NCBI GenBank assembly: GCA_947629505.1
Contig: CANRDW010000005.1
Span: 1-40,078, forward strand
Direction: 5' to 3'
Length of the DNA: 40,078 nucleotides
Origin: an uncultured Clostridia bacterium
GTDB lineage: Bacteria; Bacillota; Clostridia; Christensenellales; UBA1242
Of the stretch, positions 1 through 40,078 are shown piece after piece. The notes beneath the pieces are model-generated. The model was not told the origin of the DNA, searched no databases, and saw only the letters and a program-made list of their open reading frames with translations. Made by a program: the position numbers and the translations under genes. Numbering within the stretch: position 1 is the first letter of the stretch; each line of letters begins with the position of its first letter.

Positions 1-63
1 GGGGCTCGAACCCCGGACACCTCGATTAAGAGTCGAGTGCTCTACCAACTGAGCTAGCAGTCC
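1..63 (-). tRNA. tRNA-Lys(CTT), 3' acceptor strand cut off by the window edge
   Basis: Reverse complement GGACTGCTAGCTCAGTTGGTAGAGCACTCGACTCTTAATCGAGGTGTCCGGGGTTCGAGCCCC: D-arm, anticodon arm CTCGA-CTCTTAA-TCGAG (anticodon CTT) and T-arm CGGGGTTCGAGCCCC are all present. Confidence 0.93.
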
Positions 64-87
64 ATATTTGTTATTAAGTTGTTTTTT

Positions 88-135
88 GACCCTTCGATTA
101 AGAGTCGAATGCTCTACCAACTGAGCTAGCAATCC
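88..135 (-). pseudogene. truncated tRNA-Lys(CTT) 5' half (acceptor 5' strand, D-arm, anticodon arm, variable loop; no T-arm or 3' acceptor)
   Basis: Reverse complement GGATTGCTAGCTCAGTTGGTAGAGCATTCGACTCTTAATCGAAGGGTC, then AAAAAACAACTTAATAACAAATAT and directly the next tRNA-Lys. No T-arm or 3' acceptor strand can be found. Confidence 0.85.
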
Positions 136-212: not shown

Positions 213-389
213 TTAATCTTCCAAATCATCCACTTGAATAGTTCCGTGCAAGTTTTCAAAATCTCTGATATATCTTTTGATTGCGGTTTCGACTTCCTTG
301 TTTTTGCTGCGACCGTTGAAAGTTGCGGTGTATTCAAGTTTTTGATGCATGACGTTTGATATTCTGAGAGTAAACTTTGGCCTAGTCAT
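213..389 (-). CDS. small ribbon-helix-helix (Arc/CopG-like) DNA-binding protein
   Basis: MTRPKFTLRISNVMHQKLEYTATFNGRSKNKEVETAIKRYIRDFENLHGTIQVDDLED; SD GGAGG upstream of this internal ATG. Confidence 0.65.
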   Translation of the reverse strand: MTRPKFTLRISNVMHQKLEYTATFNGRSKNKEVETAIKRYIRDFENLHGTIQVDDLED

Positions 390-510
390 AAAATGCCTCC
401 ATAAACAAATTTTACTAAAAAATAAAAAAAATTGCTTCAAAATGCCGTCACAATTCGACACATTTTACAAAAAACGCACAAAAAAATGTGATTTTGCATA
501 TAAAAACCGC

Positions 511-5242: not shown

Positions 5243-7195
5243 ATGGACAAATTAAAAAGAATGAAAGAACTTGTGGATGAACTTTTAATTCACAACAGAA
5301 ATTATTATGAACTTGACAATCCAACCATAAGTGACAAAGAATACGACAAATTGTATGACGAACTTGTCGATTTAGAGAAAGAAACCGGCGTTGTTTTGGA
5401 CAATTCTCCAACTCAGCGCGTGGGCGGAGATGTGCTTTCAAAGTTTGTCAAGAAAAAGCATGAAGTCAGGCTTTATTCCATGGGCAAAGTGCGATCGTTT
5501 GGGGAACTTGAAGACTTTTATTTTGATATGAAAAAGTATGTGAAAAATCCAACTTTTGCCGTGGAATATAAATTCGATGGGCTGACAATTGTCACGGAAT
5601 ATAATGACGGCAAATTTGTCAGTGCCACTACACGTGGAAATGGTGAAATTGGCGAAGATGTGACGGCGCAGGTTAAGACAATCAGAAGCGTGCCACTTGT
5701 CATACCATTTAAAAAGCATATTTTGTTTCAGGGCGAAGGCATGATGACAAACTCTGCTTTTAAAAAATACAACAAAACCGCGGAAGAACCACTTAAAAAT
5801 CCACGAAATGGAGTTGCAGGAGCAATTAGAAACCTTGACCCAAAAGAAACTGCGCGAAGAAATTTGGACTATTTTTGTTATGCAGTTTTGACGGCGGACG
5901 GCAAAAAATTTGAAACTCAAAAAGAAATGCACGATTTTATTGCACAAAATGGCTTTAAAACGGGAGATTTTTTTGAAGTTGTCAAAACAATGGAGGCGGC
6001 AGAAGATTTAATCAACCAAATCGATGTTGTCAAAAATAAACTTGATGTTATGATTGACGGCGTTGTCATCAAACTTAACGAAGTTGCCCCACGCGAAAAG
6101 ATTGGCTACACAAACAAATTTCCAAAATGGGCGCGAGCATACAAGTTTGAAGCGGAAGAAATTTCAACAATACTCAAAGATGTTGTTTGGCAGGTTGGCA
6201 GAACGGGCAAAGTTTCGCCAACTGCGATTTTAGAGCCTGTTCAACTTGCCGGAGCGACAATTTCGCGTGCAACACTCAACAATATTGAAGATATCAAAAA
6301 GAAAAAAGTTTCCATCGGAAGCAGAGTTTTCATAAGGCGCAGCAACGAAGTTATCCCAGAAGTTTTGGGCTTGGCGGAAGAATATCCACATTCAAAAAAG
6401 ATTGTCGAGCCAAAAGTTTGTCCATGCTGTGGCAGTGTTTTGGTGAAAAAGGGCCCGCTTGTGTATTGCAAAAATCACGATAACTGCAAAGAGCAGATTG
6501 TCAGCCGTCTTACACACTTTGTCAGCCGTGAAGCGTTTAATATTGAGGGGCTTTCAGAAAAAAGCATCTTGCAATTTTATGACGACCTTAAATTGCGACA
6601 TTTTTCAGATATTTTCACTTTAAAAAAGCAAGACCTTGTCAAACTTGAAAAATTTGCGGACAAAAAGGCAGAAAATTTGCTTTCCAGCATTGAAAGAGCA
6701 AAAAAGATTGAATTTGCAAGATTTTTGTTTGCAATTGGCATAAGCGAAGTTGGCATTAAAACCGCCAAAGACTTGGCAAAACATTTTAAAACTTTGGAAA
6801 ATTTGCAAAACGCCACATATGAACAGGTGGACAGCATTGAAGACATAGGCGACATTATTGCGCAAAATATTGTTGACTTTTTCAAAGATAAGGACAACCT
6901 TTTGGAAATTCAGCGTTTGTTTGATGTTGGCGTGGAAATCCAAGAGGAAGAAGAAGCAAAATCCAACAAACTTGAAGGGCTTACTTTTGTTTTGACGGGC
7001 ACATTGCCACATTATGCAAGAAGCGACATGACAAAAATAATCGAAGAAAATGGCGGCAAAACGGCGTCATCCGTGTCAAAAAACACATCATATGTTTTGG
7101 CGGGCGAAGAAGCGGGCAGCAAACTCGACAAAGCAAAATCGCTTGGCATCAAAATCATAAGCGAAAGCGAATTTTTTGAAACTTTCAAAATTTAG
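5243..7195 (+). CDS. ligA: NAD-dependent DNA ligase LigA
   Basis: EYKFDGLTI active site, ATTRGNGEIGEDVT, zinc-finger CPCCGS...C, C-terminal BRCT. Start at 5243 after GGAGG SD. Confidence 0.96.
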   Translation: MDKLKRMKELVDELLIHNRNYYELDNPTISDKEYDKLYDELVDLEKETGVVLDNSPTQRVGGDVLSKFVKKKHEVRLYSMGKVRSFGELEDFYFDMKKYVKNPTFAVEYKFDGLTIVTEYNDGKFVSATTRGNGEIGEDVTAQVKTIRSVPLVIPFKKHILFQGEGMMTNSAFKKYNKTAEEPLKNPRNGVAGAIRNLDPKETARRNLDYFCYAVLTADGKKFETQKEMHDFIAQNGFKTGDFFEVVKTMEAAEDLINQIDVVKNKLDVMIDGVVIKLNEVAPREKIGYTNKFPKWARAYKFEAEEISTILKDVVWQVGRTGKVSPTAILEPVQLAGATISRATLNNIEDIKKKKVSIGSRVFIRRSNEVIPEVLGLAEEYPHSKKIVEPKVCPCCGSVLVKKGPLVYCKNHDNCKEQIVSRLTHFVSREAFNIEGLSEKSILQFYDDLKLRHFSDIFTLKKQDLVKLEKFADKKAENLLSSIERAKKIEFARFLFAIGISEVGIKTAKDLAKHFKTLENLQNATYEQVDSIEDIGDIIAQNIVDFFKDKDNLLEIQRLFDVGVEIQEEEEAKSNKLEGLTFVLTGTLPHYARSDMTKIIEENGGKTASSVSKNTSYVLAGEEAGSKLDKAKSLGIKIISESEFFETFKI

Positions 7196-9356: not shown

Positions 9357-11429
9357 ATGGCTACAAACCTTGAACTTACCAGAAACGTGGGAATCATGGC
9401 ACACATTGATGCCGGAAAAACCACTACAACAGAGCGTATTTTGTTCTACACCGGTAAAAATCACAAGATTGGCGAAGTGCATGACGGACAGGCCACTATG
9501 GACTGGATGGCACAGGAGCAAGAACGTGGCATCACAATCACTTCTGCCTGCACAACTTGTCATTGGAAGGGTCACAAAATCAACATCATCGACACTCCGG
9601 GACACGTTGACTTCACTGTTGAAGTTGAACGTTCTTTGAAGGTGCTTGATGGGGCGGTTTTGATTCTTTCTGCTCGTGACAAGGTGCAACCACAAACAGA
9701 AACTGTTTGGCGTCAATCAACCAAATACAAAGTTCCAACAATCATCTATGTCAACAAGATGGACAGAGATGCTGCTGACTTTTATGGTTGTGTAAATTCA
9801 ATCAGAGATAGATTGAAAACAAATCCTATTGCAATTCAAATGCCAATAGGTGAGGCTGAAACTTTCAGCGGAATTATCGACCTTCTCACAATGAAGGCTG
9901 AAGTCTATGAAGATGACCTTGGAACAAAAATTGACATCGTTGACATTCCTGCAGAATACAAAGACAAGGCTCAAAAACTTCATGACGAAATGATTGAAAA
10001 AATCGTTGAAACTGACGATGCACTTTTGGAAAGATATTTCGAAGGAGAAGAAATTTCTCTTGACGAACTTAAAAAAGCGCTTCGTAAAGCAACTATTTCA
10101 AGAACGTTAGTGCCTGTTCTTTGCGGCTCTTCTTACAAAAACAAGGGTGTTCAGATGCTTTTGGACGCTATGGTGGAATATTTGCCATCTCCACTTGACA
10201 TCGACCATATTGAAGGGCTTAACCCAGAAACAGAACAAACTGAAACTCGCGCTCCAAGCGAAGATGCACCTTTTGCAGGGCTTGCATTTAAGATTATGAC
10301 AGACCCATTTGTTGGTCGTCTTGCATTCTTCCGCGTTTACTCAGGTAAACTTGAAGCCGGCTCTTATGTTTACAACTCAAACAAAGGCGAAAAAGAAAGA
10401 GTTGGGCGTCTTATCCGTATGCACGCAAATCAAAGAGAAGAAATCAAAGAAGTTGGCGCGGGCGACATTGCCGCTATCGTTGGGCTTAAAGACACAATCA
10501 CAGGTGAAACACTTTGCGATGAAAAACATCCAATCGTTTTGGAGAGCATGGACTTCCCAGAGCCTGTTATTCGTGTTGCTATTGAGCCTAAAACAAAACT
10601 TATGCAAGAAAAAATGGTGCTTGCACTTGTAAAACTTGCTGAAGAAGACCCTACATTTAAAACTTACACCGACCAAGAAACAGGTCAAACAATCATCGCC
10701 GGAATGGGCGAACTTCACCTTGAAATCATCGTTGACAGACTTTTGAGAGAATTTAAAGTTGAAGCAAATGTCGGCAAACCACAGGTTGCTTACAAAGAAA
10801 CAATCCGCAAAGCCGCACGTGCTGAAGGCAAATTCATCCGTCAGAGTGGTGGTAAAGGTCAGTATGGACATTGTATCATCGACATCGAACCACTTGAACC
10901 AGGCTCTGGATATGTATTTGAGGACAAGACCGTTGGTGGCTCTATTCCAAAAGAATACATCCAACCAATCAACAACGGAATTCAAGAAGCAAGCAAAACC
11001 GGTGTTGTTGCCGGATATGAAACAGTTGACTTTAAAGTCACAGTCATTGACGGAAGTTATCACGAAGTTGACTCTTCCGAAATGGCATTTAAGATTGCCG
11101 GCTCTATGGCATTCAAAGATGGCGCAACAAAGGCAAACCCTGTTCTTCTTGAACCTATTATGAAAGTTCAAGTTGAAGCGCCAGATGAATATCTTGGAAC
11201 AGTTATGGGCAACCTTACTTCTCGCCGCGGAATTTTGACAGGAAACGAAACAAAACCAGGCGTTCAGGTTGTCAATGCTGAAGTTCCACTTGGAGAAATG
11301 TTCGGCTACGCCACAGACCTTCGTTCTCAAACACAGGGGCGCGGCACATTCACAATGGAATTCTTAAAATACAACGAAGTTCCAAAAAATATTGCTGAAA
11401 CTATCGTTGGCGCAAGAAAGAAAGCGTAA
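9357..11429 (+). CDS. fusA: elongation factor G
   Basis: [35 protein letters not shown]...; full-length 690 aa. Confidence 0.98.
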
Positions 11430-16959: not shown

Positions 16960-17694
16960 ATGGATGTTATGTTTTGGGTTTGGCTTGGGGTGATTATTGT
17001 CACAGCCATCGTTGAATTCGCCACAATGGAAGTGGTGTCCATATGGTTCACCTTTGGCGCAGTGATTCCGTTTATTTTGGCGGCAACAGGGGCTTTGAAT
17101 TGGATTTGGCAGGTTGTAATTTTTGTTGTGCTGTCGGCGATTATGATTGTTGCTTTAAGAAGTGTGACAAAAAAGTTTTTGCTTAGAAATTCAAATGAAA
17201 AGACGAATGTTGACTCACTTATTGGGCAGAAAGTTAGAATGCTCTCCCGCACAGATTTTGAAACGGTTGGAAGTGTTAAAATCAACGATGTTGTTTGGAG
17301 TGCGATTGGCTTTTCGCAGCAAGTGATTGAAAAAGATGAAATTGTCACTATTTTGAGTGTTCAGGGCAACAAACTTGTTGTGAAAAAAGACAAAGTTGAG
17401 CCTGAAAAAGTGGAAGAAACAAAGCCAAAGCGCAAGAAAAATGAAAAAGTTGCAGAAAAGCCGAAGCAAAAGACCAAGGCTGAAAGCGATGCTGAAAAAG
17501 TTGAAAAGAAAGAAGTTTCTGCGAAAAAAACAACAAAAAGTGTAAAAAAAGTGGCAGAAACAAAGAAAACAACAAAACAAAACGCTTCCACTAAGAAAAC
17601 ATCTACAAAAGCGGGGGCTAAAACAAAAACGACATCTAAATCGGCAAAAAACACTACAAAAGTGACCAAAAGTGGCGCTAATAAAAGGAGTTAG
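16960..17694 (+). CDS. nfeD: NfeD-like membrane protein with long Lys/Thr/Ala-rich C-terminal tail
   Basis: MDVMFWVWLGVIIVTAIVEFATMEVVSIWFTFGAVIPFILAATGA..., OB-like domain, then about 100 aa of low-complexity KKTTKSVKKVAETKKTTKQN... Confidence 0.8.
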   Translation: MDVMFWVWLGVIIVTAIVEFATMEVVSIWFTFGAVIPFILAATGALNWIWQVVIFVVLSAIMIVALRSVTKKFLLRNSNEKTNVDSLIGQKVRMLSRTDFETVGSVKINDVVWSAIGFSQQVIEKDEIVTILSVQGNKLVVKKDKVEPEKVEETKPKRKKNEKVAEKPKQKTKAESDAEKVEKKEVSAKKTTKSVKKVAETKKTTKQNASTKKTSTKAGAKTKTTSKSAKNTTKVTKSGANKRS

Positions 17695-23433: not shown

Positions 23434-23818
23434 GGGGACGATTTTGGTTTCGACGGAAATTTGGGCAAGATATACAAAGCATGTGGTGGAGCCCTGACAC
23501 CTTAAACAAGAGCACTGCAAATAAACGCAGACAGAAATGAAAATGTTGTTTCTTCTTATGCATATGCTGCCTAAGAAAGCAACGACCTGATTGAACTTTT
23601 CAATCTGTTCACCTTCTGCTTTTGCCAGGCGAAGTGTTGAGCATCAAATTTGGCAAAACTTTGCATTAAGTTGTCCTTGTAGATGCAAAAAATTTAAGGA
23701 ATAGTTTTTAAAACTTGTTTATGGGTTAATTAAAAACGAATTTAAGCATAAACTAAACATGTAGAAAAATATCTTGAAAGGTTTTCGGACGAGGGTTCAA
23801 TTCCCTCCGCCTCCACCA
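23434..23818 (+). ncRNA. ssrA: transfer-messenger RNA (tmRNA)
   Basis: 5' GGGGACGATTTTGGTTTCGACGG, 3' GAGGGTTCAATTCCCTCCGCCTCCACCA. Tag ORF 23527-23571 reads ADRNENVVSSYAYAA, then TAA. Confidence 0.95.
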
Positions 23819-38780: not shown

Positions 38781-38853
38781 CCATTTTTGTTTGACAAGAC
38801 TTGTGTTTTTTGCTAAAATATGTCCTATAATGTGTGTTTAAAGGACTTTTATT

Positions 38854-39882
38854 ATGAGCGAAAAATTTAGTTTAGATTTGATTGACAAAACTTTTACATC
38901 TTACAAAAAAGGGCAGGCGTTTGACGGAGTTGTGGTTTTAAAGCGCGATGACGGAGTTATTTTCAACATCGGCGGCAAAAATGATGCGTTTATTCCTGCC
39001 AGCGATTTTGCGGACTTTGACGGAATTAAAATTGGCGACAGATTTTCTGTGGTTATCACAAATTCTAAAAACGAAGAGGGCTTGATTGAGGCGTCCAAAT
39101 CCCTTGCGGACGCGCTTAAAATGGCAAATCAAAATGCACAAACGCTTAGGCTTGGCAGCAAGTTTTCTTTTGTTGTTTCGGGCGTGGGCGATGGGCTTGT
39201 TTCAAAGATGGGCGACTTTAAAATTGTCATTCCATTTGCCGAAGTTTCTGAAAACTATGTCAAAAACTTTCACAACTTTGTTGGCAAACAGATGGAAGCG
39301 GTTGTCACAGAAATTGACAAGGAAAACAAACTTATTGTCGGCAGCGTGAAGATGCTTCAAGAACAAACGCGAATTGCCATTGAAAAAAACTTTTGGAACA
39401 GCATTTTCATCAATAAAATTGTCACGGGCAAAGTTGAACGCATCATGCCATATGGCGCTTTTGTCAGCGTTGACGGATTTGATTGCTTTGTGCATATCTC
39501 ACAACTTGCATATGAAAGATTGGACAAGGTGGAAGATGCGCTTAATGTTGGAGATGTGAAACAATTTAAGGTTTTGAAAGTTGACCGCGAAAATAAAAAG
39601 GTTGAACTTTCGCTGAAAGCACTTTTGACAGACCCTAAAACGCAGCGAGTTGCAAGCCTTTCTGTCGGCGAAATCTATGACGGCGAAGTTGTCAAACTTT
39701 TGGCGTTTGGGGCAATTGTTAAACTTGAAAATGGCGCAACGGGGCTTTTGCACATCTCAAACGCAACTGACAATCAAACAAAGAAAATCTACGAAATTGT
39801 CAAAGTTGGCGACAAGATAAAAGTTGAACTTTTGGACAAAGACGAAGAAAACGCAAAAATATCTTTCAAACTCACAAAATAA
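38854..39882 (+). CDS. rpsA: S1 RNA-binding domain protein (ribosomal protein S1-like)
   Basis: Repeated S1 domains: GQAFDGVVVLKRDDGVIFNIGGKNDAFIPASDF; GKVERIMPYGAFVSVDGFDCFVHISQL; GEVVKLLAFGAIVKLENGATGLLHIS. Confidence 0.88.
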   Translation: MSEKFSLDLIDKTFTSYKKGQAFDGVVVLKRDDGVIFNIGGKNDAFIPASDFADFDGIKIGDRFSVVITNSKNEEGLIEASKSLADALKMANQNAQTLRLGSKFSFVVSGVGDGLVSKMGDFKIVIPFAEVSENYVKNFHNFVGKQMEAVVTEIDKENKLIVGSVKMLQEQTRIAIEKNFWNSIFINKIVTGKVERIMPYGAFVSVDGFDCFVHISQLAYERLDKVEDALNVGDVKQFKVLKVDRENKKVELSLKALLTDPKTQRVASLSVGEIYDGEVVKLLAFGAIVKLENGATGLLHISNATDNQTKKIYEIVKVGDKIKVELLDKDEENAKISFKLTK

Positions 39883-39897
39883 GGTGCAATTTGCACC
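39883..39897 (+). terminator. hairpin after the S1-like gene, no clear T-tract
   Basis: GGTGCA-ATT-TGCACC. Confidence 0.4.
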
Positions 39898-39903
39898 AAT
39901 TAT

Positions 39904-39941
39904 GCTAACGTGGCTCAGTCGGTAGAGCAGCTGATTCGTAA
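39904..39941 (+). pseudogene. tRNA-Thr(CGT)-like 5' half, unit 1
   Basis: GCTAACG-TG-GCTC-AGTCGGTA-GAGC-A-GCTGA-TTCGTAA; stops at the end of the anticodon loop, no 3' half. Confidence 0.8.
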
Positions 39942-39995
39942 ACAAAAATCAAACAAAAACAAATCACAAAAACTTGGGTGTTAAAAACACCTTAT

Positions 39996-40033
39996 GCTGA
40001 TGTGGCTCAGTTGGTAGAGCAGTCGATTCGTAA
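39996..40033 (+). pseudogene. tRNA-Thr(CGT)-like 5' half, unit 2
   Basis: GCTGATG-TG-GCTC-AGTTGGTA-GAGC-A-GTCGA-TTCGTAA; same truncation point as unit 1. Confidence 0.8.
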
Positions 40034-40078
40034 ACAAAAATCAAACAAAAACAAATCACAAAAACTTGGGTGTGAAAA

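Follow-up and report, generated by a model that had tools for sequence, protein, structure and literature searches.

The last part of the 40,078-nucleotide stretch of gut Clostridia DNA analysed here (the window) carries two tandem units, each consisting of the 5' half of a threonine transfer RNA (tRNA) gene, tRNA-Thr(CGT), followed by a constant A/C-rich tail. Comparison with related genomes indicates that each of these half-tRNA units is very probably the left attachment junction (attL) of an integrated element that encodes an integrase and exchanges tRNA genes, splitting the host's gene and supplying a complete replacement for the same isoacceptor. The stretch makes up contig C5 of a metagenome-assembled genome (MAG) of 991,195 bp in 43 contigs.

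The tRNA-Thr(CGT) array and its partner 3' half

The array spans positions 39904-40078 as two 92-bp units (Tandem Repeats Finder period 92, score 316) and is truncated, contig C5 ending at 40078 within the second tail. Both 5' halves comprise tRNA positions 1-38 and terminate with the anticodon loop TTCGTAA. A 40-nt tail, ACAAAAATCAAACAAAAACAAATCACAAAAACTTGGGTGT, lies directly 3' of both halves, identical in units 1 and 2, with a small hairpin next; the tRNA parts differ (GCTAACG/GCTGA in unit 1 versus GCTGATG/GTCGA in unit 2). An earlier reading of the window from its letters alone (the sequence-only reading) had described the two 92-bp units, the break at the anticodon loop and a tail more conserved than the tRNA part, and was correct on all three. 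ARAGORN called no tRNA at 39904-40078. The features at this end of the window are as follows.

38791..38819, plus strand: promoter-like site TTGACA-17-TAAAAT ahead of the S1-domain gene (promoter scan)
38854..39882, plus strand: gene for an S1-domain protein, directly upstream of tRNA-Thr(CGT), the synteny marker of the locus in relatives
39883..39897, no strand assigned: small hairpin of the native leader, GGTGCAATTTGCACC; similar hairpins lie ahead of uninterrupted tRNA-Thr(CGT) in relatives
39904..39941, plus strand: unit 1, putative 5' half of the host's native tRNA-Thr(CGT) and left half of the split attB; 3' half at G000:C20:21995-22073 (minus)
39942..39995, plus strand: tail 1 (54 bp), putative left end of the first element (attL side), with a hairpin at 39977-39991 immediately preceding the replacement tRNA; this tail recurs in G024 (L074), L090 and L095
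39996..40033, plus strand: unit 2, a tRNA-Thr(CGT) 5' half of the GCTGATG/GTCGA type, putatively from the replacement gene of the first element after a second one broke it; in G024, L090 and L095 the same tail leads into a complete tRNA of that type
40034..40078, plus strand: tail 2, putatively the second element's left end, truncated where the contig stops

The sequence-only reading had proposed a search for an orphan 3' half reading TCAGC...CGTTAGC, and such a half is present on another contig of the MAG (G000:C20:21995-22073, minus strand). When unit 1 and this orphan were joined at the loop, ARAGORN called a tRNA-Thr(CGT) with 7/7 acceptor and 5/5 anticodon-stem pairs; the core shared by the two contigs is TTCGTAA. 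Downstream of the orphan, the sequence is 88.8% identical over 80 bp, tRNA end included, to the native downstream region in L098. On its element side it matches genome G062 (L095) at 90% over 1,142 bp; in L095 this stretch follows the shared tail and the replacement tRNA at a distance of 2-3 kb. Because the outer side of the C20 orphan matches the native flank and its inner side matches G062, unit 1 and the C20 3' half are taken to flank an insertion. The tail would be the element's left end. In L095, 66-bp tandem repeats (TTATATTAACGATATAACTG...GCAAGCGGTTTGATTGCTCGGC, 10781-11181) lie right after the right end of the G062 element, where an orphan 3' half was expected.

Empty sites, complete elements and nested insertions in relatives

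The S1-tRNA-Thr(CGT) locus occurs in relatives in both empty and filled form. In twelve (L085, L087-L089, L092-L094, L096-L099 and L102) the S1 gene is followed by a single uninterrupted tRNA-Thr(CGT); in L090, L095 and G024 it is followed by one or more 5' halves, the window's tail and a complete tRNA-Thr(CGT) of another sequence type. The sequence-only reading had allowed that the tail might prove unconserved in relatives; it recurs in these three. In L090 the first half is of the native GCTGGTG type, which is intact in L093, and the complete tRNA is of the GCTGATG type. Genome G080 (98% complete) holds an entire element at the locus: the S1 gene, a half at 6852, a 155-bp tail and a complete tRNA-Thr(CGT) at 7045, with an orphan 3' half at the far end (16215). 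This 9.4-kb element encodes a 470-amino-acid tyrosine integrase, a 70-amino-acid Xis-like helix-turn-helix (HTH) protein in the usual Xis position and a Rep-like protein. G024 (98% complete) retains the half, the tail and the replacement tRNA. No separate 3' half turned up when its whole genome was searched by pattern, and there was no integrase match on that contig; loss of the element body has probably left a scar here. In L102 (7260-7530) an intact tRNA-Thr(CGT) is followed, about 200 bp downstream, by a repeat of its 3' part (GTCGCGGGTTCGAGTCCCGCCATCAGCTCC) without a 5' half.

The same arrangement was found for other isoacceptors throughout the genus. The DNA fetched comprised 144 tRNA loci, a biased sample taken around integrases and the S1 gene, in which a 5' half of the same anticodon lay upstream at 43 loci and one of any other anticodon at 1; the array structure is therefore not due to chance. 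All 43 were loci of Thr(GGT), Thr(CGT), Lys(CTT), Ile(GAT), Arg(CCT), Arg(ACG) or Arg(TCG), seven isoacceptors. In G010, for example, a Lys(CTT) element runs from a half at 7129 through the replacement tRNA (7333) and the integrase (9603-11006) to the partner 3' half at 17302. Rejoining 5' halves with orphan 3' halves gave ARAGORN tRNAs of the right anticodon with 7/7 and 5/5 pairs in 12 cases and 6/7 and 5/5 in a thirteenth; two of the rejoined cases, G000 and G030, combine pieces from two contigs. On single contigs the two halves are typically 7.6-11 kb apart, and 16.4 and 12.8 kb apart at the multi-element loci of G067 and G069. The neighbouring replacement tRNA usually pairs worse with the orphan (3/7 and 2/5 in G036, 7/7 and 1/5 in G080), and in an Ile case, G009, it is indistinguishable from the split gene by this pairing. 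G009:C42 (L156), a contig with two integrases, carries a half GCTGTTA and its partner 3' half TAACAGC, but their order is wrong; two loci or a misassembly may lie behind this.

Attachment cores shared between the element and the anticodon-loop region are about 7-10 bp. Within the element, 30-300 bp from its left end, lies a same-strand tRNA gene for the same isoacceptor, complete and with stems of its own. These two features bear on whether the elements are ordinary tRNA-gene islands that restore the gene they split, the halves being displaced leftovers. The anticodon loops of tRNA genes are a classic target, a few tails carry remnants resembling a tRNA 3' half (Ile arrays L170 and L201), and at G030:C27 ARAGORN still calls a tRNA at attL. 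With cores this short and tails unrelated to tRNA 3' halves, however, the junction tRNA is mostly not rebuilt, and the intact copy is a separate gene with different stems further on. For the window's tail a tRNA-restoring island is refuted, and as a general account it is very unlikely.

Evidence for serial integration comes from nested insertions. On the 5' side of the locus on G036:C1, a half GTTCTCG, a tail, a half GTGGGTA and a second tail precede a complete tRNA-Arg(CCT) (GTTCCCA) and then an integrase; on the 3' side lie an orphan TACTCAC (10199), a second integrase with DNA-methylase genes, and an orphan CGGGAAC (25631). TACTCAC is the partner of the second half, GTGGGTA (7/7 and 5/5), and CGGGAAC that of the first half, GTTCTCG (7/7 including one G-T pair, and 4/5, counted by hand). 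The 3' halves thus stand in exact reverse order of the 5' halves, which argues for serial integration into successive replacement tRNAs and is not predicted by duplication. In G028, four recognisable Thr(GGT) halves are preceded upstream by one more that is decayed, and the array therefore becomes younger in the direction of the intact gene.

That a tRNA gene was duplicated in tandem and the 3' halves later decayed, with no mobile element involved, is extremely unlikely on these data. Unit lengths are near constant, as in a tandem repeat (tails of 61-63 bp in 8/8 Ile cases, mostly 60-64 bp for Thr(GGT) and 53-54 bp for the window's type), and the window's two tails are identical. Yet kilobases of DNA with an integrase separate the 5' halves from the matching 3' halves that restore their own tRNA, the first half in L090 is not of the type of its intact tRNA, and the complete elements in G010, G080 and G036 refute duplication as a general cause.

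The clean break at position 38, the conserved and mostly G-free tail, and the D-arm kept in recent units could also suggest functional half-tRNAs or split genes joined in trans, and the sequence-only reading had offered both tRNA-derived small RNA genes and split-tRNA-like genes. Neither idea fares well. The TTCGTAA loop is present on both halves, which fits a recombination core and not a split tRNA. In relatives, the gene at the same locus is uninterrupted, or else an integrase and kilobases of element lie between the halves and an intact replacement tRNA follows. The most upstream units of G028 and G030 are decayed, arguing against functional half-tRNAs. Trans-splicing was ruled out by the loop duplication and the intact gene in relatives, and this family of explanations is scarcely credible. 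Of the ideas in that reading, a repeat capturing tRNA 5' ends came closest, but the units are very probably site-specific integration junctions instead. Uptake of the kind seen in clustered regularly interspaced short palindromic repeats (CRISPR), with unique spacers, was ruled out, the spacers being element ends common to several genomes. An assembly artefact, suggested by the fact that both window ends are contig ends inside tRNA arrays, is exceedingly improbable, as the same structures occur inside long contigs of independent assemblies (G080:C2, 141,844 bp; G010:C2, 112,508 bp; G036:C1, 166,850 bp) and in the rabbit MAGs L090 and L095.

Several points weigh against interpreting the units as junctions of tRNA-swapping elements. 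The window's own element is unassembled: a complete tRNA-Thr(CGT) is not present in its MAG, and there is no integrase in the 1.5 kb of C20 beyond the orphan. IMG/VR yielded no free attP match and no excised circular form. The identity of tails 1 and 2 could partly result from unequal crossing-over, and we infer from sequence both co-transcription with the host unit and host dependence on the element's tRNA.

Proposed mechanism and element biology

In the mechanism that we propose, whose first three steps can be read from the relatives' sequences, a tyrosine integrase would catalyse recombination between attP and the region around the anticodon loop in a single-copy tRNA gene. No functional tRNA would be rebuilt at the junction because the shared core is only about 7-10 bp; the 5' half would end up bordering the element on the left and the 3' half on the right, and the element would supply its own complete tRNA of the same isoacceptor, close behind the left end on the same strand. 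Subsequently, as the G036 locus indicates and as may have happened in the window, a later element would enter the anticodon loop of the replacement tRNA, with 5' halves accumulating upstream and 3' halves downstream in reverse order. If the element body were then lost, the 5' half, tail and replacement tRNA would persist as a scar, as presumably in G024. For the window, unit 1 would be the native gene's half and unit 2 the first element's tRNA, split by a second, like element. That second element's tRNA would be expected past the contig end, the far end would be expected to read TTCGTAATCAGC...CGTTAGC, and the predicted attP circle would join the element's right end, TTCGTAA and ACAAAAATCAAAC.

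Transcription of the replacement tRNA would come from the host's own unit, in this case probably the S1 operon, because this tRNA sits directly behind the host tRNA's leader, the gap from the S1 stop codon to unit 1 is only 21 bp, and a scan from that stop codon to the contig end found no promoter-like site. The site at 38791..38819 is the probable source of transcription through the locus. The cell would come to depend on the element's tRNA, because each anticodon is single-copy: in G080 one gene per elongator anticodon was found (38 tRNA genes, three being Met(CAT)), and its Thr(CGT) and Thr(GGT) copies are element-side. A requirement for the carried tRNA for viability after integration is consistent with these single-copy anticodons. 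Ile(GAT) and Thr(GGT) are expected to be indispensable for decoding.

We lean, with some reserve, towards a wider view: that this genus has repeatedly ceded single-copy, probably essential tRNAs to mobile elements which, through a replacement tRNA behind attL, capture host transcription, resist loss and offer the next attB; that the array is an ordered record of integrations; and that integrase specificity, core and tRNA are exchanged as a set. Sister elements in G010 (Lys) and G080 (Thr) are 87% identical in the tail and 94% in Rep, and only 64% in the integrase, with the attachment core and carried tRNA both altered to fit the new target. Integrase, attachment core and replacement tRNA therefore move together. 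Among 63 distinct integrases (at least 380 amino acids), the 32 adjoining arrays are spread over several deep clades of the integrase tree, on which targets are clustered (26 label changes versus 41.1 in shuffles). An array in G054, from another family of the same order, suggests that tRNA-dependent integration reaches at least one other family. Other integrases of the genus (G000:C2:3755-4432, G063:C2 and G065:C51) adjoin tRNA-Val(TAC) without a 5' half, apparently by ordinary integration.

In relatives, a tyrosine-family integrase (PF00589) adjoins the arrays, and the elements further encode Xis-like HTH proteins, XRE regulators and a Rep-like protein (PF23343). The G010 and G036 elements carry the integrase (PF00589 with SAM-like domains), HTH regulators and the PF23343 protein. 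Cargo includes a BspA-type leucine-rich repeat protein, DNA methylases, and metal ATPase-like and radical-SAM proteins. No phage capsid, terminase or tail families were found among the scanned G010 and G036 proteins, and an integrase search of IMG/VR returned one distant relative and no close match. The elements look like small integrative plasmids or mobilizable elements. T-arm remnants were detected in 4/57 tails against 0.59 expected in shuffles (maximum 4), two of them clear Ile cases. T-arm-like sequence occurs where a tRNA 3' half would lie in some Ile(GAT) and Arg(TCG) tails (L163, L170 and L201; G030:C27, L154), and may have persisted from ancestral elements still able to rebuild the tRNA gene they entered; the remnants are weak evidence that the elements in general derive from ordinary islands.

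The window's MAG contains at least three such arrays, Thr(CGT), Lys(CTT) and Ile(GAT), the last at the beginning of contig C16 and of the same build. At the window's opposite end (135-1, minus strand), a tRNA-Lys(CTT) 5' part and an A/C-rich tail are followed by a tRNA-Lys(CTT) cut by the contig end.

98..135, minus strand: tRNA-Lys(CTT) 5' half, second array
64..97, minus strand: tail of the Lys array (34 bp), with the 3' anticodon strand and variable loop kept, then A/C-rich
1..63, minus strand: tRNA-Lys(CTT) after the Lys tail, cut by the contig end; probable replacement tRNA (Rfam RF00005, 44.6 bits)

Just upstream of this array, positions 221-400 (minus strand) encode a small protein like ribbon-helix-helix regulators (MTRPKFTLRISNVMHQKLEYTATFNGRSKNKEVETAIKRYIRDFENLHG..), a homologue of which occurs at the same place in G030:C31 (L079). 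Another kind of 3'-side duplication is seen at G000:C24:16300-16985 (L070), where the tRNA-Lys(TTT) 3' end and trailer (CGAACCCGGGCGAGCCACCAAAGAATTTTTTTTAAAAGTTCTT) are repeated about 100 bp further downstream. The window also contains a transfer-messenger RNA gene (23434-23818; tag peptide ADRNENVVSSYAYAA).

Relation to known systems

These observations suggest that tRNA-dependent integration is not peculiar to actinobacterial phages and is a common lifestyle of small elements in gut Clostridia with genomes of about 1 Mb. The arrays would order past integrations in time, and the host has probably been made dependent on an element's tRNA without any toxin. Such elements may also explain, in a simple way, why assemblies break at these loci and why odd partial tRNAs are annotated there.

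The anticodon loop is established as a 7-bp overlap of tyrosine integrases (PMC8371274). In tRNA-gene genomic islands a tyrosine integrase enters the anticodon loop and a displaced fragment marks the other end (Islander, PMC4383910; Williams, 2002); such islands restore the target gene, whereas the elements described here would replace it. Partial tRNA genes have been reported as integration traces, in the form of single partial duplications (van der Gulik et al., 2023, PMC9897764), in contrast to the 5'-half arrays seen here, each half with a tail and a replacement tRNA. Unlike archaeal split tRNA genes, the loop is duplicated on both halves, an intact tRNA is present and the gene is uninterrupted in relatives. 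In their integrase, Xis-like HTH protein, XRE regulators, Rep-like PF23343 protein and cargo, the elements resemble integrative mobilizable elements or integrative plasmids with rolling-circle Rep.

The closest parallel is the tRNA-dependent lysogeny of actinobacteriophages, in which integration breaks a tRNA gene and a carried tRNA rescues the host (Guerrero-Bustamante and Hatfull, 2024, PMC10865867); the same paper cites prophage Lj965 of Lactobacillus johnsonii. Both systems have a tyrosine-family integrase, a short core and a tRNA that is not rebuilt at the junction. Those temperate phages carry the cognate tRNA at another place in their genome; that of Fionnbharth runs antisense to gene 37 and has a promoter of its own (PMC10865867). 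Here, by contrast, attL is invariably followed within 30-300 bp by a replacement tRNA in the same orientation, the carriers examined had no recognised phage genes, and seven target isoacceptors and repeated nested integration are found. In the open-access literature we found no report of 5'-half arrays. The principle is already known; what is new here is that non-phage elements use it, that their replacement tRNA comes immediately after attL, and that natural arrays preserve a record of successive integrations. It has been speculated that a second element might use the tRNA gene of the first as attB (PMC10865867), and the arrays look like natural cases of exactly such an integration.
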